Below are positions 9,741 to 39,528 of a stretch of 46,294 nucleotides of DNA, in pieces. The notes under the pieces are model-generated. The model saw only the letters and a list, made by a program, of their open reading frames with translations. It ran no database searches and had not been told where the DNA came from. The stretch is taken from contig CALWJF010000065.1 in assembly GCA_944380935.1 (NCBI GenBank), positions 1 to 46,294 on the forward strand, written 5' to 3'. The position numbers and the translations under genes are program-made. How positions within the stretch are numbered: the stretch's first letter is position 1; each line of letters begins with the position of its first letter. This DNA is from an uncultured Clostridia bacterium (GTDB taxonomy: Bacteria > Bacillota > Clostridia > Oscillospirales > QAMX01).

Positions 9741-10319
9741 TTACCCTTCCAGATAATCCTTTATCAGGCCGGCGTAATCGCCGACGGAAATCGTGCCGGT
9801 ATCGGCAGACGCTGCGGACAGATAGCCGGCAGGGTACTTATGGGTTTGTATCTTCTCATTTTCATCGATTAATCTTAGATAGATCGGCGTCAGTACATGG
9901 TTATTCGCATCCAGGAAAACCAGCACATGGTCACCCTTTTTTAAAAGTTCAACGCCGTCCACCCTATAGATTCGGTCGTCCAATTCCCCGCCCTGCTGTA
10001 TACAAACAACACTGTCTTTCTCTTCGCCCTTCAGGGTGTGCTCCACCGAAATGACAGCGTCCGTATACACATCATAGGCTACCATATCGGTATCCGGAGG
10101 GCCGAAGGCTACGGTCCGGGCATCCGCCACGGAAGAAACCGTGCCGATGACAATCGTAGACGCAATGTCGCAGGCTTCCTCAAAGCTGAAATCCGCCCAG
10201 AGATTATGTACTTCGATGATCGGTTTGTCGGAACGCTGCGAAGCCTCCATACCGCACCCGGGAAACAGCGCCAGCAACAGGAACATTACAAAAATCAAGG
10301 AAATCCGTCTGTATTTCAT
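9741..10319 (-). CDS. Small secreted lipoprotein, unknown function
   Basis: The product from ATG 10319 is 192 residues; GGGAGGTG lies 7-8 bases upstream. A signal sequence (YRRISLIFVMFLLLALFPGC) ends in the lipobox FPGC. The mature part has features of small extracytoplasmic beta-rich domains: FEEACDIASTIVIGTVSSV, VEHTLKGEEKDSVVCIQQGG, and LLKKGDHVLVFLD. The last resembles extracytoplasmic proteins seen beside secreted metalloproteases, but I cannot name a family. It starts 16 bases after the stop of the metzincin gene, so both are probably one transcript. Confidence 0.75.
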   Translation of the reverse strand: MKYRRISLIFVMFLLLALFPGCGMEASQRSDKPIIEVHNLWADFSFEEACDIASTIVIGTVSSVADARTVAFGPPDTDMVAYDVYTDAVISVEHTLKGEEKDSVVCIQQGGELDDRIYRVDGVELLKKGDHVLVFLDANNHVLTPIYLRLIDENEKIQTHKYPAGYLSAASADTGTISVGDYAGLIKDYLEG

Positions 10320-10335
10320 AGCAAACACCTCCCTG

Positions 10336-10935
10336 TCAAGCATAGATGGAACGATAACTGTCTTTATCATAATTCTTCAAAACACGCTGCTGTGAGTTGC
10401 TCGAAAGAACGGGGCTCATCACGTTGTAAGGACAGCTTCCGACACCGCATGCCACAATGTTTACATCATTATGGCAATGTGCCACACCATATGCATGACC
10501 AAGTTCATGTAATATTACACTCTGTAAATCATAAGCGCCAACTTGCGCGGAGTCTGAAAAAGTATGAGAATTTGATAATCGAATCCAGACATACTGCAAA
10601 TCACCCAAGTCCGGATTAGGGGTTATACGTGCAATGGTACCTGTAGGCAGATAATCGAAATATATTCTGCATTGACTGGTTGAATCATTTGTCAAAACAG
10701 AATTTAACAGTTCCGATCCATCGTCAGCTTGAACATAGCTCCATTTTGTCATCGCAGCTTCTGCCTGAGTTTCCTGCTATGATTCCAAGCCATCACAATA
10801 CCATTCGATTATATGCGGCACGCTCGGCCATTCAAACCCCAACGCATACCGCGGGCCCGCTGCATAAACCGCCGTCGAGGAACAGGCGAAAAGGGCGGTT
10901 ATGCAAATGAGCAGAATTTTCATTCCTTTGTTCAT
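10336..10935 (-). pseudogene. Secreted matrixin-like zinc metalloprotease, interrupted by an in-frame TAG
   Basis: Two frames lie in the same phase, separated only by TAG at 10777-10779. The first part, from ATG 10935 (AAAAGG upstream), is a signal peptide (MKILLICITALFACSSTAVYA) plus about 30 residues ending CDGLES. After the amber codon the same phase continues QETQAEAAMTKWSYV through the catalytic motif HELGHAYGVAH and the Met-turn NVMSP. The whole would be ~199 residues, typical of small secreted matrixin-like proteases. Without read-through, a downstream ATG at 10752 would give a cytosolic fragment lacking the signal. Either a recent nonsense mutation, an assembly error, or amber recoding. 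The lipoprotein gene follows after 16 bases. Confidence 0.82.
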
Positions 10936-11164
10936 TTTACACATGCCTTTTCCAATTTTGCTTCTGCGGACGGGGGATAATCGATAAACCTTCTTCTCAT
11001 ACCGGCAATGTTGTAACTTACATGTAAATTTTACAAAAAATTCAGATTCTGTCAATATTTTTTGTAGTTTATTTCACTGGCGTTGATGATTTTTACTGTT
11101 TTTTTCCGTTTTCCTTCAAACTGTGTTATATCTGCGCTTATATAAAGTTATATCATTTCTCTAT

Positions 11165-11193
11165 TTGCATTTTCTGTACGCTTCCTTTATAAT
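11165..11193 (+). promoter_or_regulatory. Promoter of rex
   Basis: TTGCAT (11165-11170), a 17-base spacer and TATAAT (11188-11193), about 33 bases before the ATG. I see no clear Rex operator overlapping it. Confidence 0.8.
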
Positions 11194-11225
11194 AAGAAAC
11201 GGAATTTAACCAAAGGAGCAAAAAA

Positions 11226-11846
11226 ATGAGCGTTTCGCCAAAACTGTTTACACGGCTTCCGATGTACCTGCATTACCTCAAGCAGATGCCGGAAGAAGTG
11301 GAAAATATATCCGCCACCGCCATCGCTGCCGCGCTTGGATACGGCGACGTGCAGGTGCGCAAGGACCTGTCCGCCGTCAGCGGCGAAGGCAAGCCGAAAA
11401 CCGGCTATGAGGTTTCCGGCTTAATCCGCGCACTGGAAAATTTTCTGGGCTATAATCAGATCAATACCGCTGTGATCGTCGGCGCCGGGAAGCTGGGCAT
11501 GGCGCTTTATGAATATTCCGGTTTTGCTGAATACGGCCTGCGCATCGCTGCGGCGTTTGATAAGGACCCGGCAAAAACCGGCGTCACTTCCAGCGGTAAA
11601 ATGGTTTATCCGCTGTCGGATTTTGAAGATTTCTGTTCCGATGGGGCAGTCAAAATCGGGATCATCACAACCCCCGCCTCCGCCGCGCAGGAAGCCTGCA
11701 ATCTGATGTGTGCAAACGGCATCGCGGCGATCTGGTGCTTCGCACCGGCGCACATCAACGCCCGCGAAGGCGTTATGGTGCAGTATGAAAATATGGCGAG
11801 TTCCCTCGCCATGCTTTCCAGCCATCTGGCGCGGGAAACGGAATAA
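11226..11846 (+). CDS. rex: Redox-sensing transcriptional repressor Rex
   Basis: This 206-residue protein fits Rex. The N-terminal winged helix (residues 1-75) has the conserved RLPMYLHYLKQM and ALGYGDVQVRKDLS. The Rossmann domain has VIVGAGKLGMAL for NAD(H) binding, and the C-terminal helix that swaps between subunits is present. Rex represses fermentation and alternative NADH-oxidising genes until the NADH/NAD+ ratio rises. Its ATG follows AAAGGAG. A GH43-like gene follows after 69 bases in the same direction and may be co-transcribed. Confidence 0.96.
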   Translation: MSVSPKLFTRLPMYLHYLKQMPEEVENISATAIAAALGYGDVQVRKDLSAVSGEGKPKTGYEVSGLIRALENFLGYNQINTAVIVGAGKLGMALYEYSGFAEYGLRIAAAFDKDPAKTGVTSSGKMVYPLSDFEDFCSDGAVKIGIITTPASAAQEACNLMCANGIAAIWCFAPAHINAREGVMVQYENMASSLAMLSSHLARETE

Positions 11847-11915
11847 GCGTGCCCTCCGTCCCTGCGGAGTGCTGTGTTTGCATTTTTATACAAAATCCCG
11901 GAAAGGAGCTTTCGG

Positions 11916-12806
11916 ATGTTATTTACCAATCAGGCGCATCACTGTTTTGCAAAAGACCCGGCTGTTGTCCGCTTTGGCCGGCAGTATTTCCTCTACTACT
12001 CCATGCTGCACGATGATCAATCTTTCGGCGTCGGGATCGCAGTTTCCCCGGATATGGAAAATTGGGCCTGTGCCGGAGAAATCGAACAGACACAGCCCTG
12101 CGAAAGCCAGGGGATTGCCGCCCCGGCCGCGATCATGTTAGATGGGCGCATCCATTTGTTTTACCAGACTTATGGGAACGGACGGCTGGATGCAATTTGC
12201 CACGCGGTGAGTACAGACGGCTTCCATTTTGAAAAAAATCCTGAAAACCCCGTCTTCCGTCCCAGTTCGGACTGGTGCTGCGGCCGCGCCATCGACGCCG
12301 ATGTCTGTGTTTGGAACCATATGCTTTATCTCTATTTTGCTACGCGCGATCATGCGTTTGCCATCCAGAAGGTCGGAGGCGCCTGCGCGGCGCTGGATTC
12401 CGGTTTCGGGCGGGATGCGTGGCGGCAGCTTGCACGGCAGACGCTGGTGCATCCGGAATTTTTATGGGAAGGCGCATGCATCGAAGCGCCGGCAACCCTT
12501 GTCCACAACGGACGGCTTTATCTGTTCTACGGCGGCTCGTATAACTGTACGCCCCAGCAGATTGGCTGTGCGGTTTCCGACGACGGAATCTTCTTCCAGA
12601 AGCTCTTTACCGAACCGCTGCTTCCCTGCGGCGGCCCTCAGGACTGGAACAGCAGTGAATCCGGACATCCCTATGCGTTTGCGGATGACGACGGACGTTG
12701 TTATCTATTTTATCAGGGCAGCGCAGATATGGGAAAAACCTGGTATCTAAGTCGCAAAGAAATCCTGTTTGACCACGCGGGTATCCCGCGCCTGGTCGAA
12801 TGCTAA
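11916..12806 (+). CDS. GH43-like five-bladed beta-propeller glycosidase
   Basis: The ATG at 11916 has GGAAAGGAG about 9 bases upstream; product 296 residues, no signal peptide. Repeated blade motifs are visible: FAKDPAVVRFGRQYFLYYSM, HLFYQTYGNG, HMLYLYFATRD, LYLFYGGSYN, CYLFYQGS. The Asp in AKDPAVV and the Glu in CIEAPATLVHNG are in the positions expected for the base and acid of clan GH-F (families 43/62) or related GH117/130-like propellers. It probably acts on intracellular oligosaccharides such as arabinoxylan fragments, which would suit the esterases downstream; substrate not proven. Confidence 0.75.
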   Translation: MLFTNQAHHCFAKDPAVVRFGRQYFLYYSMLHDDQSFGVGIAVSPDMENWACAGEIEQTQPCESQGIAAPAAIMLDGRIHLFYQTYGNGRLDAICHAVSTDGFHFEKNPENPVFRPSSDWCCGRAIDADVCVWNHMLYLYFATRDHAFAIQKVGGACAALDSGFGRDAWRQLARQTLVHPEFLWEGACIEAPATLVHNGRLYLFYGGSYNCTPQQIGCAVSDDGIFFQKLFTEPLLPCGGPQDWNSSESGHPYAFADDDGRCYLFYQGSADMGKTWYLSRKEILFDHAGIPRLVEC

Positions 12807-12839
12807 TCTATACCTATTGATCTACATTCTTTATATTAT

Positions 12840-12887
12840 ACCGCCGTTACGGGAAACTTCACCTGCAACGGCGGTTATTGTGCTTTT
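12840..12887 (+). terminator. Terminator of the GH43-like gene
   Basis: ACCGCCGTT (12840-12848) pairs perfectly with AACGGCGGT (12867-12875), followed by TATTGTGCTTTTT. Confidence 0.8.
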
Positions 12888-12994
12888 TATATCTCATTGT
12901 TTATTTCTTTTACTTTAAAAAGCGTCTTTATTTTAATAAGTGCAAAAATGTGGGGTGAATTTTATAATTCTGTAAATAATTGACAAACTTTTTA

Positions 12995-13023
12995 TTGACT
13001 TTATGGAAATAAACAACTAAAAT
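12995..13023 (+). promoter_or_regulatory. Promoter of the first CE15-SLH gene
   Basis: TTGACT (12995-13000), a 17-base spacer and TAAAAT (13018-13023). A second TTGACA at 12980 lies upstream. The surrounding TTTTTATTGACTTT is also found at the promoter of the second paralogue. Confidence 0.72.
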
Positions 13024-13068
13024 TATAGGCAGCAAAGAATCCCCCAAAAAAATCATAGGAGGAAAAAA

Positions 13069-16000
13069 ATGAAAAAACTAATTGCACTGCTCACTGCGGT
13101 TGCCTTGGTGCTAACGCTGAGTGCACCCGCGCTGGCTACAGACATGTGGCCCGGTTATCCCGGTCCTGATGAGCTGGAAGTCCAGACTACGATCCCGAAT
13201 CCGTTCAAATTCGTTAACGCAGAGAACGATCCGACGGGTGACGGTTATGTTTCCAGCCCTGAAGAATGGGAAGCCCGCCGTGAAGAGATTAAGGATCTCT
13301 TCCAGCACTATTGGTACGGCTATAAGTGGCCCACCGCAGCTAAGGACGTCGTCGGTTATACCGAAGTGCGCGACGATCCGAACACCGCAAGCTTCCGCTC
13401 CGGTTGGAGCACTGCTACGGTAAATCTGGGTGAAGCCTTTGCAGAACTGACCGCCGCCATTCAGGCCGGCGCTGTTCAAGTCGGCGATGCGACGTATGGC
13501 CCGGAAACAGATGAAGCAGCCGCAAAAGCTTTAGCTATTGAAGCTTGGAATGCCGGCTATACCATTACAAAAGAAGTGACTTCCTGGGGATCCACTGTAG
13601 CAATTGAATGCTGCTTTGTGGATCAGACCGGTAAAATCGATGCGGATTCCATCCCGACTGTAACCATTCCGGTTGCACATCAGGTCGTCAAGATTCAAAA
13701 TCCGGAACTGGGGACCGAAGCAAGCTTCGATATTACGGTTACCGTTCCATCTGACGAACAGCGGATCGCCGCCTGGGGCAATGCGACCGATCCGGTCCCG
13801 GTTATGATCGGTATCGGCGGCACCTTCAGCGCAGACGCTTTGCTGAATGCCGGTTACGGTATCGCCACCTTCAAAACCACAACCATCTATCCGGATAAAG
13901 AAGGCGGAAACGGAAACGAAGACCGCAGCGGCGTTTATACGGATCTGTACCCGTATGACCCGACTGTATATGAATATTCCTCCGGCTCCCATATGGCCTG
14001 GGCCTGGGCGGTAAGCCAGATTATCACCGCTTTGGAAAATGCTTCCGGCACAGAGGGTTCGACCGTAACCTTCGGTGAGGAGCTCGGCCTTGACCCGACC
14101 CGTGTCGGCGTTACCGGACATTCCCGTAACGGCCAGACTTCCATCGTTGCCGCTGCATTTGATGAACGCATCGACGTTTGTCTGCCGTCTGAACCGGCAA
14201 CCGGAAGCTATACTTATAAAGTTGAAGGCAAGATCTTCAACTGGAACACTTCCTATTATCCCGCTGCCGACCGCGTTTACGGAAAAACCGGTCCTACTTC
14301 CAACGGCCTTGGCGGCACCTGGTTCTCCGGCGCAGCGGATATCTTTGAAGAAGGCTACCGCGAACTGCTGCTTCCGTTCGACCCGAGCGAACTGATCGCG
14401 CTCGTCGCGCCGCGGCCCTATTTCGTCGTAACCGGTATCCATCAGCACTGGCAGGGCAACGAAGGCATCGTGGCCATCGTCAAAGCTGCTGCTGAAGTTT
14501 ATGATTATATCGGCGAAACGGAAACCGAAAAGAATAACGTCGGCGTACGCGCCCGTGAAAGCTCGCATTCCTTCTACTACAATTTCGACATCCCGTTTGC
14601 GATTGCGATCCTCGACCGCGAATTCAAGCAGGATGAAAGCGATACCGTCCTGCATGTCCAGGATCTCTATCCGGACGGCGACAGCGCGCAGAACATGTCC
14701 TATCCGGCAAAGGATTATGCCAACATCAGCGACATGACCTCGCATCCGTTCGAAATTGCCAGCGCTTATATGCCCTGGTCCAGCCCCAACAAGTACATGC
14801 TGTGGACGGCGCAGGACAACTTCCTGGTCAATCAGAACGTTACCATTACTGCGCATTCTGACGCACCGGATGTAGATCTGTATACCCCGTCCGGAACCAA
14901 AATCGACGCCGTCTCCCATGAGGGTGAAATCCTTACCTTCACGCTGACGCCGGATCAGGCGGTTTACGGCCGTTATGAACTGCGTACAGTTGGTTCCGAT
15001 AAGGAAAACCGCAGCGTGTACTTCTCCGCCATCAGCCTGTCCGACGCACTGCGCCACGGCACCACCAAGGGCGACGAAGGCGAGCAGAACCGTGTGCTCG
15101 GTTTCTCCAGCCGTCTTGCCAATACCGAGCAGGACCCGCCGGTTGTCTACATCAACGGCGTCGCTACGGATATGAACTTTACCAGCAATCGGAATCCGGA
15201 CGAAGAAACCACCCTTTTCGGTTACGGAATCCAGTTCCATGATAAACTGTTCGCCCGCATCGCCAACGAAGGCTGGGACGAGACCGGTACGTTCAGCGTT
15301 AAGAATCTGAAATTCGTTACGCTGCCCGGCTATGTCTTTGAATTCTCCATGGCTGATATTTATGCTTCCGCAGAGGATAACGGCGAAGAAGGCGCGGACA
15401 AGTTTGTAAAAGATATTTCCTGGCCGGTGGAACGCTACAACAACGGTGAAGCCGAAGTCTGGCCGCCGATTCCTTATGGTCCGGAAGAACGGGCCGCTTA
15501 TGAAGCCGGAAAGACCATTTCCAGACCGGAAGGCCCGGACACCTGGACCACGGACTTCGACGCAGAAATCGTTGAAACCCGTGTGGCAGCCGAAGGTTCC
15601 AATGTCGTGATTACTCTGAAGTTCAGCGAAGCGCTGAATAAGGGCGAATATGCTTTCGGCTTTGATTCCGCATCGAACTGGACAACCGCCTGGAATGAAG
15701 CCGGAGACGAACTGTCTATTACCATCAGCGGCAGCAACATTCAGTCGGATGATGGTAAGATGGATCTGATTATCTTCCGTTTGATGGATCTGGAAGACAA
15801 CCTCATCGCCGGTCCGATTCAGATTGAAATAACGCTGCCGGAGGATTATTCCACCGGTACCGATGACACGGAAACCGATACGGATAAGAGCGCTCTGCTG
15901 AACAAGCAGGATCACAACGCTTATGTCAGCGGCTATCCGGACGGCACCATTCGTCCGGACGCCAGCATCACCCGTGCTGAGGTTGCTACGATGTTCTTCA

Positions 16001-16569
16001 GCATTCTGACGGATGAAGCCAAGGCAGAATATGCGACCCGCACCAACAGCTTTACCGACGTTAAGGCGGGCAGCTGGTATGAAGAAGCCGTTTCCACGCT
16101 CAGCGCCATGGGCGTATTCAATGGGTATAAGGACGGCAGCTTTAAGCCGAGCCAGAACATTACCCGCGCTGAATTTGCAACGATCGCCGCCGCGTTCGCG
16201 CAGCAGCAGGCGCAAACCATTACCTTTACAGACGTTGCGGAAAAGCACTGGGCAAGCAAAAACATTTCTCTTGTCGCCGCCAATGGCTGGGTCACCGGTT
16301 ATAAGGACGGCACCTTCCTGCCGAATCAAAATATCACCCGTGCCGAAGCCATGTCGATCATTAACCGGATGCTGGATCGTAATCCGCAGAGCATTGACGA
16401 TCTCTCCGATACGATGAAGACCTGGAGCGATAACGCAAATACGAAGAAGTGGTATTATCTGACGATTCAGGAAGCAACCAACAGTCACGAATATACCCGT
16501 ACTGAAGATGGGTTTGAGGTCTGGGGCAGCGCTTCTGCAACGGAAAACACCCCGGTTTCGGCAGAATAG
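13069..16569 (+). CDS. S-layer-anchored CE15-like glucuronoyl esterase, paralogue 1
   Basis: Secreted protein of 1166 residues. The ATG follows AGGAGG. The signal peptide (residues 1-23) ends LSAPALA. An N-terminal segment (YVSSPEEWEARREEIKDLFQ) and an alpha/beta-hydrolase domain match carbohydrate esterase family 15: nucleophile Ser352 in TGHSRNGQ, acidic residue Glu465 in WQGNEG, and His500 in SSHSF. CE15 enzymes cut ester bonds between lignin alcohols and glucuronoyl groups of xylan. Middle beta-rich domains follow, then three SLH domains (~949-1125: SGYPDGTIRPDASITRAE, NGYKDGSFKPSQNITRAE, TGYKDGTFLPNQNITRAE) for cell-wall anchoring. Odd: the Lys normally found after GxSRxG is Gln356. The gene ends in TAG with TAA two codons later. 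Confidence 0.85.
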   Translation: MKKLIALLTAVALVLTLSAPALATDMWPGYPGPDELEVQTTIPNPFKFVNAENDPTGDGYVSSPEEWEARREEIKDLFQHYWYGYKWPTAAKDVVGYTEVRDDPNTASFRSGWSTATVNLGEAFAELTAAIQAGAVQVGDATYGPETDEAAAKALAIEAWNAGYTITKEVTSWGSTVAIECCFVDQTGKIDADSIPTVTIPVAHQVVKIQNPELGTEASFDITVTVPSDEQRIAAWGNATDPVPVMIGIGGTFSADALLNAGYGIATFKTTTIYPDKEGGNGNEDRSGVYTDLYPYDPTVYEYSSGSHMAWAWAVSQIITALENASGTEGSTVTFGEELGLDPTRVGVTGHSRNGQTSIVAAAFDERIDVCLPSEPATGSYTYKVEGKIFNWNTSYYPAADRVYGKTGPTSNGLGGTWFSGAADIFEEGYRELLLPFDPSELIALVAPRPYFVVTGIHQHWQGNEGIVAIVKAAAEVYDYIGETETEKNNVGVRARESSHSFYYNFDIPFAIAILDREFKQDESDTVLHVQDLYPDGDSAQNMSYPAKDYANISDMTSHPFEIASAYMPWSSPNKYMLWTAQDNFLVNQNVTITAHSDAPDVDLYTPSGTKIDAVSHEGEILTFTLTPDQAVYGRYELRTVGSDKENRSVYFSAISLSDALRHGTTKGDEGEQNRVLGFSSRLANTEQDPPVVYINGVATDMNFTSNRNPDEETTLFGYGIQFHDKLFARIANEGWDETGTFSVKNLKFVTLPGYVFEFSMADIYASAEDNGEEGADKFVKDISWPVERYNNGEAEVWPPIPYGPEERAAYEAGKTISRPEGPDTWTTDFDAEIVETRVAAEGSNVVITLKFSEALNKGEYAFGFDSASNWTTAWNEAGDELSITISGSNIQSDDGKMDLIIFRLMDLEDNLIAGPIQIEITLPEDYSTGTDDTETDTDKSALLNKQDHNAYVSGYPDGTIRPDASITRAEVATMFFSILTDEAKAEYATRTNSFTDVKAGSWYEEAVSTLSAMGVFNGYKDGSFKPSQNITRAEFATIAAAFAQQQAQTITFTDVAEKHWASKNISLVAANGWVTGYKDGTFLPNQNITRAEAMSIINRMLDRNPQSIDDLSDTMKTWSDNANTKKWYYLTIQEATNSHEYTRTEDGFEVWGSASATENTPVSAE

Positions 16570-16600
16570 TCCTAAACTGCATATTTTTACAACAAATTGT

Positions 16601-16637
16601 ATCGCGTGCAGACAAAATCTGCACGCGATATTTTTTT
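16601..16637 (+). terminator. Terminator of CE15-SLH paralogue 1
   Basis: A perfect 12-bp stem (ATCGCGTGCAGA with TCTGCACGCGAT), a CAAAA loop, then ATTTTTTT. Confidence 0.95.
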
Positions 16638-16719
16638 ACAATAACTTTGCAAAAAAATGTTTTTTAACAAAATTTATCCATTGTAACGGTTTATTTTATG
16701 AAATAAAAACAAATTTTTA

Positions 16720-16747
16720 TTGACTTTTTTTAAAATTCGTTTAAAAT
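16720..16747 (+). promoter_or_regulatory. Promoter of the second CE15-SLH gene
   Basis: TTGACT (16720-16725), a 16-base spacer and TAAAAT (16742-16747). It shares TTTTTATTGACTTT with the promoter of paralogue 1, suggesting the duplication included the promoter. Confidence 0.72.
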
Positions 16748-16791
16748 AGGTGGTAGTCTTCTTTTTTAAAAAACACATAGGAGGGAAAGAC

Positions 16792-19700
16792 ATGAAAAAA
16801 CTTGTTGCGCTGTTAATTACAGCCGCAATGATCGTCACGCTCGGTGCGCCTGCTTTCGCAGCGGCTCCGCTCGACGGATATCCGGGCATTGACGAACTGG
16901 AAGCGATCGATACGATTCCAAACCCGTTTAAGTTCTTCGATGCATCGAACGACCCGACGGGCGACGGCTATGTTTCCACCCCGGAGGAGTGGGAAGCACG
17001 CCGTGAGGAAATCAAAGACCTTGTACAGCATTACTGGCTTGGTTATCAGTGGGAAACCGATCCGGCGGATGTTTCCGGCGGTTCTGTGCCTGAAGAAATT
17101 GCGAATACGGTATCGTTCGGCGGTTTCTGGGGCATGGGCGGTGCTACCATTAACATCGGTGAGGAGTTCACCAAACTCGTTGCCGCCATCCAGACCGAAG
17201 GCGTAACGGTCGGTGAAGATACTTACGGACCGGAAGCTGACGAAGAAGCTGCAACAGCTTTGGCAATCGAAGCCTGGAATGCAGGCTACAGCGTCCATTA
17301 GGTTGCATCCGGATGGATGGGCTGGGGCGCCGGTGAAGGCGACGCCGTCATGAAAGAGCAGACCGGCGAAATCGATGCCGACAGTATTCCTGGCACAACC
17401 AAAATTGTTTATTACTACAATGTAATCGTAAAGAATCCCGATACGGGCGTCGAAGCGCAGTTCCGTATTAATATTTCTGCGCCGACTGCGCAGCAAAAGC
17501 TCGATGTCTGGGGCGATGAAAATGCACAGGTTCCGTTTGTCATCGACGTCGGCGGCGCTGCAGCATTCTCCGCTGCAAACCTGAACCCGCAGGGCTATGC
17601 GCTGGTTTCTTTCACTCCGACGGATATTTATCCGGATGATTCTTCTGAATCCGATGGCATCAACCGTGACGGTGTTTATACCGAACTGTATCCCTATGAT
17701 GCCGATGAATATGAATATGCATCCGGCGCATTACTCGCCTGGGCCTGGGGCGTCAGCCAGATCATCTCTGCCATGGAGCAGCCCTCCGCTACGGAAGGCT
17801 CCGATATGACCTTCGGTGAGGAAGTCGGCCTTGACCCGACACGTACGGTTGTAACCGGACACTCCCGTTATGGTAAAGCTGCCATGTTTGCTGCTGCCTT
17901 TGACGAGCGTATTTCCATCTGCTGCCCGTCTGAACCGGGCGGATCGGGTATCCAGTCCAACCGTTATAAGGTAGAAGGCAAGATCTTCAACTGGAATACC
18001 TCTTATTATCCGAAGGCAGACCGTGTTTACGGAAAGACCGAGACCCCGACCGTTTCTTATGGTTCCGGTAACTCCTGGTTCCCGGAGACTGCTGCTATGT
18101 TTGTAAATAAGGACAACCAGATCCCCTTCGATTCTGATGAAATCATTGCTCTGGTTGCTCCGCGTCCCTTCTTCGTTGTCAGCGGTATTGATACCCACTG
18201 GCTCGGAAACGAAGGCGGCGTTGCAAGCGTTATGGCTGCTGCGGAAGTCTACGACTACATAGGCGAAACTGAAATTGAGAAGACGAATATCGCCATCCGC
18301 TGCCGTCAGAGCGATCACGTATTCTATCCGCAGGATTTCTGCTTCGCGCTGGCCATTATGGACCGTGAATTCAAGCAGGATGAAAGCGATACCACGCTGC
18401 ATGTTCAGGATCTGTTCCCGACGGGCACGGACTATCGCTCCATGTCCTATCCGGCAGCAGATTATGATTACCTCAGCGACATCACCTCGCATCCGTTTGA
18501 AATTTCCAGCTATTATATGCCCTGGTCCAATGCAAACAAATATGTTCTGTGGACGGCACAGGATAACTTCCTGACCAACCACGACGTTACCATTACCGCT
18601 TATTCCGACGCACCGGAAGTTGTGCTTTATACTCCGGATGGCGTGATGATTGAGGCTGCCAGCTCCAGCGGCGAAGAGTTCATCTTTGAACTGAGCGCAG
18701 ACCAGGCGGTTTACGGCCGTTATGAACTGTGCACAGTCGGTTCCGATAAGGAAAACCGCAGCGTATATTTCTCCGCCATCAGCCTGTCCGATGCACTGCG
18801 TCACGGCACCACCAAAGGCGATGAAGGCGAAGAAAACCGTGTGCTCGGCTTCTCCAGCCGTCTTGCCAACAACGAGCAGGACCCGCCGGTTGTTTATATC
18901 GACGGCGTTGCTACAGATATGAGCTTTACCGCCGGCCGTATGCCGGAAGAAGAAACTACGCTGATGTCCTATGGTATCCAGTTCCATGATAAGCTTTTCG
19001 TCCGTATTGCGAACGAAGGCTGGGATGAGACCAAGACTTTCAGTGTAAAGAACCTGAAGTTCGTCACGCTGCCGGATTATGTCTTTGAATTCTCCATGGC
19101 AGACATTTACGCTTCCGCTGAGAATAACGGTAAGGAAGGCGCTTCCAAATTCACCAAGGCAATTTCCTGGCCGGTTGAACGCTACAACAATGGCGATGCA
19201 GAAGTCTGGCCGCCGATTCCGAACACGCTGGAAGAACGTCAGATTCTTGAAGCCGGCGGAACCGTTGAACGTCCGGAAGCTCCGGCTCCCTGGACCACGG
19301 ACTTCGATGCAGAAATTGTCAATTCCTATGCAGAACTCGATCTTGCTAAATTGAATATCGTAATCGAATTCAGCGAACCGCTGAATGTCGGTGAATATGC
19401 TTTCGGCCTGGACGTCGCCTCCGATTGGCAGACTTCCTGGAATGAAGCAGGCGATACTTTGACGATTTCCATCATCCGCGATGATCTGGCAGACGCTGAC
19501 GTCGCCAACATCATCATCTTCCGCCTGATGGATCTGGAAGGCAACCTCATTGCCGGCCCGATCGAATTGAGCGTTGATATTCCTGAGACTCCGACCATTG
19601 ATTTCGATGAGATCAAGCCGGTTGAAGGCTCCATCACCGTTTCTGTTGTTGATTCTGCAGATAATGCTGCAATCAGCGGCGCAAAAGTCAAGCTTTATGA

Positions 19701-20535
19701 AGATAAGGCTCTGCTTGGTACGTATATAACCAATTCCGATGGTAAGGCGTACATTGACGAGCTCGTACCGGGCGATTACAGCATCGTTCTTGGCGAAGTC
19801 CCGGATGGCTATGAGCTCAACAATACGGCCTATCCGGTTACGATTTCTGCCGGCAGCGAAAAAGCTTTGACGATTTCCGTCAATCGTAAGGTCGTTGTGG
19901 AAGAGCCGGATGAAGAAGTACCTGAGCTGGATAAGTCTGCACTCCTGGATAAGACCAGTGGTGACGCTTATCTCTCCGGTTATGAAGACGGCACCATCCG
20001 TCCGAACGCAGACATCACCCGTGCAGAAGTTGCCGTGATGTTCTACCGCGTCCTGTCCGACGAGGCGTTGGCACAGTATTCCACCAACTACAACACCTTC
20101 ACCGACGTTGATCGTGATGCCTGGTATAATACAGCGGTGTCCACCCTCTCTTCCATGGGTGCAATCAACGGTTATCCGAACAATACCTTTGCTCCGGATG
20201 CCAAGATCACCCGTGCTGAATTCGCTACTATTGCAGCAGCATTTGCCGAGGCCACTTCCGGCACCGCTTCCTTCAGCGATGTCTCCGGGCACTGGGCAAG
20301 CGAATATATCCGCATTGCTGCTGCCAACAACTGGATCAGCGGTTACGAAGATGGTTCCTTCCGTCCGGATCAGAATATCACCCGTGCAGAGGCGATTTCC
20401 ATCATCAACCGTATGCTGGGCCGCAGCGTATCTTCTGCGGACGAGCTCCCCGAAGGAATGACCACCTATTCGGATAACCTGGATACAACGAAATGGTATT
20501 ATCTGGATGTCCAGATCGCTGCCAACAAGATCTAA
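16792..20535 (+). pseudogene. S-layer-anchored CE15-like esterase, paralogue 2, with one in-frame TAG
   Basis: The ATG at 16792 follows GGAGGG. Ignoring one TAG (17299-17301, codon 170) the frame is open for 1247 residues. The signal peptide ends LGAPAFA. The CE15-like domain keeps the full motif TGHSRYGKAA (Ser358, Lys362), WLGNEGG and the later His in SDHVFY. Beta-rich domains follow, then a Cna-B/SpaA-like domain (~944-1033: SGAKVKLYEDKALLGTYITN, DGYELNN) absent from paralogue 1, then three SLH domains. The amber codon falls in a loop (GYSVH, stop, VASGW) where paralogue 1 reads GYTITKEVTSW. No other lesion is visible over more than 1000 downstream codons. Translation restarting at 17317 would lack a signal peptide, so without read-through it is non-functional. 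Confidence 0.82.
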
Positions 20536-33948: not shown

Positions 33949-35583
33949 ATGGTTATCACGCAGATCCTGGAACAAAACGCGCAGAAATTCGGGGAGGACA
34001 TTGCGCTTGTGGAGATCAATCCCGAGCAGCCGGAAACGCGGCGGCACACCTGGCGGGAATTCGAGCTGGTGGAGTCGGCGCCCTGCCCGTATTACCGGCG
34101 GGAAATTTCCTGGAATATTTTTAATGAAAAAGCCAACCGGTTTGCCAACGCGCTATTAATGCGCGGCATCAAAAAAGGGGACAAGGTTGCCATCCTGATG
34201 ATGAACTGTCTGGAATGGCTGCCGATTTATTTTGGAATCTTAAAAACCGGCGCATTGGCTGTGCCGTTGAATTTCCGTTATTCTTCCGATGAAATTGAAT
34301 ATTGTTTAAATCTTGCCGAGGTGGACGCGCTGGTTTTCGGCCCGGAATTTATCGGACGCGTCGAGGCAATTGCCGACCGGATTATGGAGAACCGGCTGCT
34401 GATCTATGCCGGACCGGGATGTCCGCGCTTTGCCGAGGACTACCATTCTCTGACTGCGGACTGCGCCTCCCGTTCACCGGAAATCCCGCTTACGCCGGAC
34501 GACTATGCGGCCATTTATTTTTCTTCCGGGACAACCGGGTTCCCAAAAGCCATTCTGCACAAGCACCGTGCCCTGATGCACGCCGCAATTGTCGAACAGA
34601 AGCACCATGGTCAGACTAAAGACGATATATTCCTTTGTATCCCACCACTGTACCATACAGGTGCAAAAATGCACTGGTTCGGGTCCCTGCTGTCCGGGGG
34701 CAAAGCCGTGCTGCTGAAAGGGACGAAGCCGGAATTCATTTTCGACGCCATAAGCAAGGAAAAATGCACGATTGTCTGGCTTTTGGTCCCATGGGCGCAG
34801 GATATCCTCGCCGCACTTGACCGCGGGGATTTGAAAATTTCCGATTATACGCTATCGCAGTGGCGGCTGATGCACATCGGCGCGCAGCCGGTCCCGAGAA
34901 GCCTGATCCGCCGCTGGCTCGAATATTTCCCCAACCATCAATATGATACCAACTACGGCCTTTCGGAATCCATCGGCCCCGGTGCAGTCCATCTGGGCGT
35001 GGAAAATGTCGCCCATGTCGGCGCCATCGGCGTACCCGGCTACGGATGGCAGACCAAAATCGTGGATGAATCCGGCGCCGCGGTCGCACAGGGCAGCGTC
35101 GGCGAACTGTGCCTCAAAGGCGACGGCGTTATGGTCTGCTACTACAACGACCCTGAAGCGACGGCGAACACCCTGAAGGACGGCTGGCTTTATACCGGAG
35201 ACATGGCCATGCAGGACGAAGAAGGGTTTATCCATCTGGTTGACCGCAAAAAGGACGTCATCATCACCGGCGGCGAAAACCTCTATCCTGTCCAGATCGA
35301 GGACTTTATTTCCGCATACCCGGCTGTACAGGATGTAGCCGTGATCGGCCTGCCCGACCGGCGTCTTGGGGAAATTGCCGCTGCTATCATTCAGCTCAAA
35401 CCCGGCGCCGTATGCACCGAAGAACAGATCAACGAATTCTGCAAGGGTATGCCGCGCTATAAGCGCCCGCGCAGAATAATTTTCGCAGATGTTCCCCGCA
35501 ATCCGACCGGAAAAATAGAAAAACCAAAGCTGCGCAAACTGTACGGCGGCGATCTTCTGGTCGAGTCACAGAATCTGTCGTAA
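33949..35583 (+). CDS. AMP-forming acyl-CoA synthetase (class I adenylate-forming)
   Basis: First gene of the IOR operon; 544 residues from ATG 33949 (AAGGAG upstream). ANL superfamily motifs: A3 YFSSGTTGFPKA, A5 region NYGLSESIGPG, A7 GWLYTGD, A8 hinge VDRKKDVIITGGENLYP, and the C-terminal lysine in NPTGKIEK. It should activate a carboxylic acid to its CoA thioester through an acyl-adenylate. The operon context suggests an aryl or branched-chain acid. An unusual N-terminal insertion (VESAPCPYYRRE) precedes the fold. It coexists with a second, different ligase (PaaK) in the same operon. Confidence 0.92.
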   Translation: MVITQILEQNAQKFGEDIALVEINPEQPETRRHTWREFELVESAPCPYYRREISWNIFNEKANRFANALLMRGIKKGDKVAILMMNCLEWLPIYFGILKTGALAVPLNFRYSSDEIEYCLNLAEVDALVFGPEFIGRVEAIADRIMENRLLIYAGPGCPRFAEDYHSLTADCASRSPEIPLTPDDYAAIYFSSGTTGFPKAILHKHRALMHAAIVEQKHHGQTKDDIFLCIPPLYHTGAKMHWFGSLLSGGKAVLLKGTKPEFIFDAISKEKCTIVWLLVPWAQDILAALDRGDLKISDYTLSQWRLMHIGAQPVPRSLIRRWLEYFPNHQYDTNYGLSESIGPGAVHLGVENVAHVGAIGVPGYGWQTKIVDESGAAVAQGSVGELCLKGDGVMVCYYNDPEATANTLKDGWLYTGDMAMQDEEGFIHLVDRKKDVIITGGENLYPVQIEDFISAYPAVQDVAVIGLPDRRLGEIAAAIIQLKPGAVCTEEQINEFCKGMPRYKRPRRIIFADVPRNPTGKIEKPKLRKLYGGDLLVESQNLS

Positions 35584-35595
35584 GGAGATCCACAT

Positions 35596-37149
35596 ATGAG
35601 CATCGTACTGATTACCGCTTTTCTTGTCGTCTTTTTTGCCATTATGATCGCCATCGGCATTTACTGCCGCCGGCACAGTTCCAGCGTAGACGGGTTCGTA
35701 TTGGGCGGACGCAGCGTCGGGCCATGGCTGAGCGCGTTTGCATTCGGCACTTCCTATTTTTCCGCTGTAATCTTTGTCGGCTATGCCGGGCAATTCGGCT
35801 GGAATTTCGGCCTGGCTTCGACCTGGATCGGCCTGGGCAACGCATTCATCGGTTCGCTTCTGGCCTGGGCGGTTCTGGGCCGCCGCACGCGCGTCATGAC
35901 GCAGCATCTGGGGTCCAAAACCATGCCGGAATTTTTCGGTGCGCGTTATGACTCCAAAACCTTGAAAATTGCGGCAAGCGTCATCACCTTTGTCTTTATG
36001 ATCCCCTATACCGCCTCTCTGTACAACGGGCTTTCCCGCCTGTTTTCGATGGCGTATAACGGTATCGATTATTCCCTATGCGTCATCATCATGGCCGTAC
36101 TCACCGGCATCTACGTTTTATTCGGCGGCTATATGGCCACCGCAATCAACGATTTTATTCAGGGTTTGATTATGCTCGGCGGTATTGTCGCCGTCATCGG
36201 CGCCGTACTCAGCTCCAACGGCGGCTTCAGCGCTGCAATAGAAACGCTGGCCACCAGCGAAAACGGCGGCTGGCAATATACTTCCTTTTTTGGCGCGGAC
36301 CCCGGATTCCTATTCTTTGTCGTCATGCTGACTTCGCTGGGCACCTGGGGCCTTCCGCAAATGGTGGGGAAATTTTATGCGATCAAGAACGAAGACTCCA
36401 TCAAAAAGGGCACCGTTATTTCCACGCTGTTTGCCATCATCGTCGCAGGGGGCTGTTACTTCCTCGGCGGATTCGGACGGCTGTATGAAGTGGATGTGGC
36501 AAACGAGGGTTTTGACGCAATTATTCCCACCATGCTTTCCAACCTGCCGGCAATCCTGATCGGCGTAGTAATCGTGCTGGTGCTGTCCGCATCCATGTCC
36601 ACACTGTCTTCTCTTGTACTGACTTCCGGCTCGACCATTACACTCGACTTTATCGCGCCGCTGCGGAAAACCAGCATGACGGAAAAAGGCAAAATGCTAT
36701 GCATCCGTTTGTTTATCGTCTTTTTTATCGCCGTTTCTACCGTTATCGCAATCTTCCAATATCATTCTAAAAGTTTCCTCATTGCACAGATGATGGGCGT
36801 GTCCTGGGGTGCGCTTGCCGGTGCGTTCCTGGCGCCCTTCCTCTACGGTCTATATTGGAAAGGCGTGACCCGGATTTCTGTCGTTGTATGCTTTATATAC
36901 GGCGTTGGGCTGGAAATTATGCAGCTTCTCATTTCCCTTGGAATTTTCAGCGTCGAATCCGTCCCAGTCCTCGGCTTTATCTTTAAAAATTCCCTGTATT
37001 CCGGCGTCTTTGCTATGGTCGGCGGCTTAATCCTCGTCCCGGTTGTAAGCGTCCTGACCCGTGCTTCCAGGCCTGCGGATACAGAGGGTATATTTGCCTG
37101 CTATGGGGAAAAGAAAACGGTTGAAATCACAGATTCTCTGGGAAAATAG
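35596..37149 (+). CDS. Sodium:solute symporter (SSS family)
   Basis: A 517-residue integral membrane protein with about 13 hydrophobic segments, starting 12 bases after the synthetase (AAGGAG upstream). Family motifs: VDGFVLGGRSVGPWLSAFAF, GTSYFSAVIFVGYAG, YVLFGGYMATAINDFIQG, and LSASMSTLSSLVLTSGS in the Na2-site helix. It resembles the PutP/panthothenate/acetate-type branch. It probably brings in the acid that the two ligases activate, driven by sodium; the substrate is inferred from the operon. The gene ends in TAG. The 64 bases to iorA hold only its ribosome site. Confidence 0.92.
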   Translation: MSIVLITAFLVVFFAIMIAIGIYCRRHSSSVDGFVLGGRSVGPWLSAFAFGTSYFSAVIFVGYAGQFGWNFGLASTWIGLGNAFIGSLLAWAVLGRRTRVMTQHLGSKTMPEFFGARYDSKTLKIAASVITFVFMIPYTASLYNGLSRLFSMAYNGIDYSLCVIIMAVLTGIYVLFGGYMATAINDFIQGLIMLGGIVAVIGAVLSSNGGFSAAIETLATSENGGWQYTSFFGADPGFLFFVVMLTSLGTWGLPQMVGKFYAIKNEDSIKKGTVISTLFAIIVAGGCYFLGGFGRLYEVDVANEGFDAIIPTMLSNLPAILIGVVIVLVLSASMSTLSSLVLTSGSTITLDFIAPLRKTSMTEKGKMLCIRLFIVFFIAVSTVIAIFQYHSKSFLIAQMMGVSWGALAGAFLAPFLYGLYWKGVTRISVVVCFIYGVGLEIMQLLISLGIFSVESVPVLGFIFKNSLYSGVFAMVGGLILVPVVSVLTRASRPADTEGIFACYGEKKTVEITDSLGK

Positions 37150-37213
37150 CTTGTATCTGCATATAATCTGCATTATAATATTTGTATGTGCATATGAAAG
37201 AAAGGAAATCCGC

Positions 37214-38959
37214 ATGAAAAAACTGATGCTCGGCAATGAAGCCGTCGCCCGCGGTTTCTACGAGGCAGGCGTAACGGTTGTTTCCAGTTATCCGGGAACG
37301 CCTTCCACGGAAATCACGGAATATTCCGCTAACTATGATGAAATTTACTGTGAGTGGGCGCCGAATGAAAAGGTAGCCTGTGAAGTCGCCTTCGGTGCTT
37401 CTTTGCGCGGCGCACGCGCGGCCTGCGCCATGAAACACGTCGGCTTAAATGTCGCCGCCGATCCGTTGTTTACCCTTTCCTATACCGGGGTAAACGGGGG
37501 GCTTGTCGTCTGCGTGGCCGACGACCCTGCAATGCATTCCTCGCAAAATGAACAGGACAGCCGCCATTACGCCATCGCCGCAAAAATCCCGATGCTGGAG
37601 CCTGCCAATTCGGCAGAAGCGCGCGACTTCGCCAAGGCTGCGTTCACGCTTTCGGAAACTTATGATACACCGGTGCTTCTGCGCATGTGTACGCGTATTG
37701 CGCATTCGCAAAGCATCGTCACGCTGGAAGACCGGCAGGCCCGTCCGCTTCCGGACTATCACCGTGCCCCGGCAAAGTATATTATGACCCCGGCAAACGC
37801 CATTCAAAAACACCCGCTGGTCGAAGAACGCACACGCAAACTGACCGAATATGCAGAAACCTGCCCGTTTAACCGTGTGGAAATGGGCGGAACCAAACTT
37901 GGCATTCTGTGTTCCGGTACCTGCTACCAATACATAAAAGAAGTATTTGGCGACAGTGTCAGCGTATTGAAGCTGGGTCTGGTCAATCCGCTTCCCGTGC
38001 AGAAAATCCGCGACTTTGCCGCACAGGTCGACCGGCTTGTCGTCGTTGAAGAGCTCGATGGGATCATCGAGCAGCATTGCGCTTCCATCGGCGTTGCTGT
38101 AGAAGGCAAAAGCCTGTTTTCCCCTATCGGCGAATTCAGCCAGGCTACAATCCGCCGTGCGTTCGGGTTGGAGCAGCCGAAAGAAGCCTGCGCTGAAAGC
38201 CTGCCTATACCTGTGCGCCCGCCGGTTATGTGCGCCGGATGTCCGCACCGCGGTTTATATTATTCGCTGGTTAAGAACAAAGTTACCGTTTTGGGCGATA
38301 TCGGATGCTATACCCTCGGTGCAGCCGCGCCGCTGAACGCGCTGGATTCAACGTTGTGCATGGGTGCATCCGTCAGCGGCCTGCATGGATTCAATAAGGC
38401 TTCCGATGGCGCCGATGCAGCAAAAACGGTCTGTGTTATCGGCGATTCCACGTTTATTCATTCCGGTATTACGGGCTTAGTCAACATTGCCTATAACAAT
38501 TCTCATTCTACGGTTATCATCCTGGATAATTCCATCACCGGGATGACCGGCCATCAGCAAAACCCCACTACCGGTTATAACATCAAAGGCGACCCGGCTA
38601 CGAAGGTCAGTCTTGAAGCGTTGTGCCACGCAGTCGGCATCCATCGGGTGCGTGTCGTCGATCCTTATGATCTGGCTGCCTGCGATACGGCTATCCGCGA
38701 AGAGCTCGCCGCGGACGAGCCGAGCGTCATCATCAGCCGCCGGCCCTGCGCGCTTTTGAAGTATGTCCGCCATCCCGGCCCGATTTCCATCGATGCGGAC
38801 AAGTGCCGCGGCTGCCGCGCCTGTATGCGCATCGGCTGTCCGGCTATCTCCGTACGCAATAAAAAGGCGGTAATCGACGCGACACTCTGCGTCGGCTGCG
38901 GCGTATGCAGCCAGCTGTGCGCGTTTGACGCCATTGAAAAGAAGGAGGTCAAAGCATGA
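37214..38959 (+). CDS. iorA: Indolepyruvate:ferredoxin oxidoreductase, alpha subunit
   Basis: The 581-residue subunit starts at ATG 37214 (AAAGGAA upstream). The N-terminal pyrimidine-binding domain has VVSSYPGTPSTEITEY and the C-terminal half holds the TPP pyrophosphate domain (CAGCPHRGLYYSL, TVLGDIGCYTLG, GDSTFIHSGI, NSITGMTGHQ). The end carries two [4Fe-4S] motifs, CRGCRACMRIGCP and CVGCGVCSQLC. With IorB it converts aryl pyruvates plus CoA and ferredoxin to aryl-acetyl-CoA, CO2 and reduced ferredoxin, or the reverse. The stop overlaps the iorB start by 4 bases (ATGA). Confidence 0.96.
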   Translation: MKKLMLGNEAVARGFYEAGVTVVSSYPGTPSTEITEYSANYDEIYCEWAPNEKVACEVAFGASLRGARAACAMKHVGLNVAADPLFTLSYTGVNGGLVVCVADDPAMHSSQNEQDSRHYAIAAKIPMLEPANSAEARDFAKAAFTLSETYDTPVLLRMCTRIAHSQSIVTLEDRQARPLPDYHRAPAKYIMTPANAIQKHPLVEERTRKLTEYAETCPFNRVEMGGTKLGILCSGTCYQYIKEVFGDSVSVLKLGLVNPLPVQKIRDFAAQVDRLVVVEELDGIIEQHCASIGVAVEGKSLFSPIGEFSQATIRRAFGLEQPKEACAESLPIPVRPPVMCAGCPHRGLYYSLVKNKVTVLGDIGCYTLGAAAPLNALDSTLCMGASVSGLHGFNKASDGADAAKTVCVIGDSTFIHSGITGLVNIAYNNSHSTVIILDNSITGMTGHQQNPTTGYNIKGDPATKVSLEALCHAVGIHRVRVVDPYDLAACDTAIREELAADEPSVIISRRPCALLKYVRHPGPISIDADKCRGCRACMRIGCPAISVRNKKAVIDATLCVGCGVCSQLCAFDAIEKKEVKA

Positions 38960-39528
38960 GAACCATCAACCTGATGATCGTCGGCGTCGGCGGACAAGGT
39001 TCGCTTCTGGCTTCCAAGCTGCTCGGCTCGCTGCTTGTTGCAGAAGGCTACGACGTCAAAGTCAGCGAAGTCCACGGCATGAGCCAGCGCGGGGGAAGCG
39101 TCGTTACCTACGTCCGCTACGGCGATAAGGTCTATTCCCCGCTTGTAGATCTGGGCGAGGCTGATTATATCATTTCCTTTGAAAAACTCGAGGCTGCCCG
39201 CTATGTCGACCGGCTGCGTCCGGACGGCAAAATTATCGCCAATACCCAGCAAATCGACCCCATGCCGGTCATTACCGGTGCGGCGGAGTACCCGGAAGAT
39301 ATCCTCGACCGGTATGCCGAAAAAGGCGTACAAATTGACGCCATAGACGCGCTTTCCCTGGCAGAAAAGGCCGGCTCTGTCAAAACCGTGAACATTGTAC
39401 TGATGGGCCGCCTTGCCCGCTATCTCGATATTCCCTATGAAAAATGGATTGCCGCCATCAAACAGAATGTAAAAGAACGCTTTGTAGCCATGAATCAAGA
39501 GGCCTTTGCCCTGGGCTATAACAGCTAA
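38956..39528 (+). CDS. iorB: Indolepyruvate:ferredoxin oxidoreductase, beta subunit
   Basis: The 190-residue gamma-domain subunit has the usual IorB length. It opens NLMIVGVGGQGSLLASKLLG and continues VKVSEVHGMSQRGGSVVTYV, both hallmarks of the pyruvate-oxidoreductase gamma domain that closes the CoA site. It overlaps iorA by four bases, so the subunits are made in equal amounts. It ends 15 bases before paaK. Confidence 0.96.
   Translation: MRTINLMIVGVGGQGSLLASKLLGSLLVAEGYDVKVSEVHGMSQRGGSVVTYVRYGDKVYSPLVDLGEADYIISFEKLEAARYVDRLRPDGKIIANTQQIDPMPVITGAAEYPEDILDRYAEKGVQIDAIDALSLAEKAGSVKTVNIVLMGRLARYLDIPYEKWIAAIKQNVKERFVAMNQEAFALGYNS

Follow-up and report, generated by a model that had tools for sequence, protein, structure and literature searches.

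Two secreted-protein genes of an uncultured Clostridia bacterium are each interrupted by a single in-frame TAG, probably through recent nonsense mutations

The window, as we refer to the whole stretch of 46,294 nucleotides analysed here, is contig 65 of a 1.8-Mb draft genome from an uncultured member of the Clostridia. The draft is assembled in 113 contigs and is 87% complete, with 1.65% contamination. The two interrupted genes described below have ordinary neighbours, among them genes for IleRS, LexA, Rex, LysR and ABC transporters, which indicate a chromosomal bacterial setting. The named relatives of the CE15-SLH protein likewise point to the Clostridia. A search of the window against Rfam yielded no matches. 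At positions 33949-39528 one gene cluster encodes an AMP-binding (acyl-CoA ligase-like) enzyme, a sodium:solute symporter and a two-subunit TPP/Fe-S ketoacid:ferredoxin oxidoreductase.

The first interrupted gene, located at 10935-10336 on the minus strand, encodes a metzincin and contains a single in-frame TAG at codon 53 (10777-10779; context GAA TCA TAG CAG GAA), with 52 codons before it and 146 after it in the same phase. The 52 upstream codons (10780-10935), as judged from their translation and alignment with homologues, specify the signal peptide and the first residues of the protein, whereas the downstream part (10336-10776; Pfam PF00413, 2.2e-05) carries the HExxHxxGxxH zinc motif, here HELGHAYGVAHCH, and the NVMSP Met-turn. 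The coding score of this gene is 0.07 bits per codon before the TAG and 0.02 after it, a bias too weak for a codon-usage test; the frame is nevertheless backed by homology on both sides. A sequence search of the metzincin against solved structures gave no match. Directly downstream, on the same strand, lies an intact lipoprotein-like gene (9741-10319), and the pair recurs in the same order on another contig of the genome, C39, and in two relatives (window 9741-10935; loci L065/L079, L096 and L097). The metzincin of contig C39 is intact and 40% identical to the interrupted one. The same contig carries three copies of the lipoprotein gene, one of which has decayed through an in-frame TGA and a frameshift, so that TAG is not the only route by which genes of these families decay here.

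The second interrupted gene belongs to a pair of adjacent CE15-SLH paralogues, both on the plus strand, which are 64% identical. Paralogue 1 (13069-16569) is intact and ends in TAG, with a TAA two codons further on. The frame of paralogue 2 (16792-20535) is broken at codon 170 by a TAG (17299-17301; context GTC CAT TAG GTT GCA) that separates 169 codons (16792-17298), encoding a signal peptide and the N-terminal region, from 1077 codons in the same phase (17302-20535), which contain no other stop before the terminal TAA. The downstream part comprises a CE15 esterase domain (Pfam GCE_fung, 2e-38; also matched by CE15 relatives in the PDB), a SpaA-like domain and three SLH repeats (3.8e-39). When paralogue 2 is aligned with paralogue 1 and a homologue from Thermobacillus, its residues S358, E381 and H509 (read-through numbering) prove invariant; we take them to be the catalytic triad (serine, glutamate, histidine) expected of CE15, and their catalytic role is thus putative. 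The coding score is 0.36 bits per codon on either side of the TAG, the highest for any stop codon scanned in 425 kb of the genome. The initial annotation, made from the sequence alone, had described one in-frame TAG in each of the two genes, with phase and motifs preserved, and had seen no other lesion in more than 1000 codons after the second TAG; translation, Pfam matches and homology bear out both observations.

Alignment of homologues at the two TAG positions, one of the checks that the initial annotation had proposed, revealed neither a conserved TAG nor a single residue replacing it: every homologue found has a sense codon at the site. In five homologues of the metzincin the position is occupied by D, A, N, N and N, and in two homologues of the CE15-SLH protein by K (AAA) and Y (TAT), within a variable stretch. 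In both genes, therefore, homology to intact genes extends over either flank of the stop while the stop itself is absent from those homologues, which is the pattern of a nonsense pseudogene.

We consider both TAGs to be probable nonsense mutations of the ordinary kind, recent and independent of each other, in non-essential genes for secreted proteins. Each frame bears a single lesion, and an intact paralogue of each gene is present in the genome. The ribosome would then translate 52 codons of the metzincin gene and 169 of the CE15-SLH gene, producing short exported fragments devoid of catalytic or wall-binding domains, and restart at a nearby ATG (10752 on the minus strand; 17317 on the plus strand) would give a protein without a signal peptide. 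Because restarted products would lack that signal, both genes have probably lost their function in the sequenced strain; their roles may be taken over by the intact CE15 copy alongside and, for the metzincin, by its paralogue on contig C39. Nonsense-interrupted genes of this kind are already known in bacteria, and the present pair resembles such pseudogenes in having one in-frame stop, unconserved, in a dispensable gene with an intact paralogue elsewhere. The pair differs in that neither gene shows further lesions, so the alleles would have to be young. The 1077 lesion-free codons after the CE15 TAG indicate a young stop but only limit its age: up to ∼3% substitutions per site could accumulate before three new stops would be expected in this length, indels being left out of the estimate. 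This clean run of more than 1000 codons and the absence of a release factor 1 gene from the assembly, discussed below, are the points that count against nonsense alleles. The occurrence of two TAGs in one window constitutes a weak link between them, since the genes are unrelated and the chance that both stops would be TAG is ∼1/9 if the three stop codons arise about equally often; that both nonsense codons are TAG is unremarkable.

The main rival is that the TAGs are absent from the organism's dominant genome and owe their presence in this metagenome-assembled contig to a consensus or sequencing error, or to a mixture of strains, by which a single sense codon was replaced in each gene. The fragmented state of the draft is in keeping with such an origin, and so is the presence of exactly one single-codon lesion in each gene with the motifs otherwise intact. 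Consensus errors are, however, rare in short-read assemblies, and two of them within 6.5 kb would call for a local coverage problem, given that the rest of the 425 kb shows no evident case, although the scan on which this comparison is based catches only about half of random interruptions. We regard this explanation as rather unlikely, and infer that the TAGs are probably real mutations rather than errors. In a draft metagenome-derived genome an in-frame TAG followed by a clean frame is to be expected from young nonsense alleles or from assembly error, and does not by itself constitute evidence of recoding.

How TAG is otherwise used in this genome was assessed in a sample consisting of the window and 20 sampled stretches (379 kb), 425 kb in total. 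TAG closes 38 of the 304 scored open reading frames, or 37 when the CE15 TAG itself is set aside, and the sequence that follows scores as non-coding after all three stops (-0.07 bits per codon for TAG, -0.06 for TAA and -0.14 for TGA). The five genes of the window that the initial annotation had listed as ending in TAG (16569, 23565, 26740, 27803 and 37149) are present, and three of them are indeed followed by TAA within five codons (two codons after 16569, four after 23565 and five after 27803). Across the sample a second in-frame stop occurs within five codons in 11 of 38 cases for TAG, 22 of 181 for TAA and 15 of 83 for TGA; this excess was weighed as a hint of leaky TAG and set aside, being small and drawn from a short sample. 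When every stop codon of the 425 kb was scanned by codon usage, only one strong interruption emerged, the TAG of the CE15-SLH gene. The sensitivity of the scan is ∼0.5 for random interruptions, so that a few could have escaped it but a genome-wide habit could not. Genome-wide reassignment, under which TAG would lie inside many conserved genes and would go unused as a gene end, agrees with the sample on neither count.

The initial annotation had offered three options, namely recent nonsense mutation, strain mixture or assembly error, and conditional amber suppression. The first two stand. The third is one form of a broader explanation, in which TAG is read through, always or conditionally, by a suppressor tRNA, by pyrrolysine incorporation or owing to loss of release factor 1 (RF1), and both proteins are made at full length. 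The intact frames downstream of both TAGs would suit it, but the searches for decoding machinery, also proposed in the initial annotation, argue otherwise. The Rfam tRNA model retrieved 36 tRNAs from the assembly, none with a CUA anticodon, an absence that is not absolute at 87% completeness. The best match to tRNA-Sec (RF01852) is a tRNA-Ser(UGA) according to ARAGORN. The best matches to PylS scored 25.7 and 22.8 bits against a cut-off of 178 (in the control for this search 13 of 14 genomes gave a match, only one of them over the cut-off), and that to PylD scored 18.9 bits against a cut-off of 150. Proteins containing pyrrolysine occur in methanogens and in some bacteria, such as Bilophila and Acetohalobium, and a functional amber codon is normally kept at one site. 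In the pyrrolysine system, whose genes are carried by the genome concerned, TAG occupies one conserved site of the methylamine methyltransferases (PMC7593587). Both genes studied here share with that system an in-frame TAG and an intact downstream frame, but neither TAG lies in a methylamine methyltransferase or at a conserved site, and the pyrrolysine genes were not found in the assembly. TAG-recoded phages (crAss-like and others) likewise possess internal TAG codons, whereas the window is a piece of bacterial chromosome with ordinary TAG ends.

The point most favourable to read-through concerns RF1 (prfA), the factor that terminates translation at TAG: the search for it in the assembly hit only RF2 (274 bits, cut-off 423). 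The family comparison covered 21 genomes, our own included, while the genus is represented by our own genome only. RF1 scores over the cut-off in 18 of these 21 genomes; the remaining three, which have no full RF1, are our own draft, a genome of 73% completeness and a fragmented one that gave two partial matches. No tRNA-Ile is present in our assembly either, and several tRNA-Leu are missing; a cell cannot live without these, so that the absence of RF1 is probably due to incompleteness. In addition, contig C51, which carries DUF1385, breaks off inside prmC, a gene that adjoins prfA in many bacteria; in the loci of the relatives, however, prmC does not lie within the flanks of prfA, and the position of the break is only suggestive. 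The ordinary TAG ends across the sample argue for a working RF1 and are hard to square with either its loss or efficient suppression. Taken with the unconserved positions of the two TAGs, this makes read-through very unlikely.

It has also been considered that the truncated or restarted products are functional, each TAG forming the boundary between a short secreted peptide and a second protein with an internal start of its own. ATG codons do occur a few codons past both stops and open reading frames of their own (10336-10752 and 17317-20535), but the proteins started there would be devoid of a signal peptide even though both domains belong outside the cell. Moreover, the break in the CE15-SLH gene follows ∼120 residues that are conserved with paralogue 1 and the Thermobacillus homologue, and no such arrangement was encountered among the relatives found. 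This explanation is highly improbable. Hardly credible is the proposal of a reassignment in its early stage, in which the lineage would be without RF1 and tolerant of partial TAG read-through, and harmless internal TAGs would thereby have entered a few secreted proteins, although a true absence of RF1 would make the genome a rare example of a bacterium at the outset of TAG reassignment.

Several other candidates for interrupted genes were rejected. Other stops with coding sequence on both sides (for example 12442 in locus L081, TAG; 514 in locus L077, TAA; and 39526 in the window, TAA) were judged by eye to mark the close of a gene, with another gene lying behind it in the same frame. In an SLH match on contig C67, a TGA that appeared to lie inside the gene proved to be just its own end.

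The esterase domain of the CE15-SLH proteins matches the sequences of characterised CE15 glucuronoyl esterases (OtCE15A, 6syr; Cip2, 3pic; and 8tse) at 1e-14 to 1e-26. They differ from these enzymes in the fusion of the domain to SLH repeats and, in the second copy, in the interruption by TAG. In their DNA the two paralogues (13069-20535) form a mosaic, ∼92% identical across codons 652-691 but 52% identical in several other blocks, a pattern that gene conversion between parts of the genes, or strong constraint on them, might produce.
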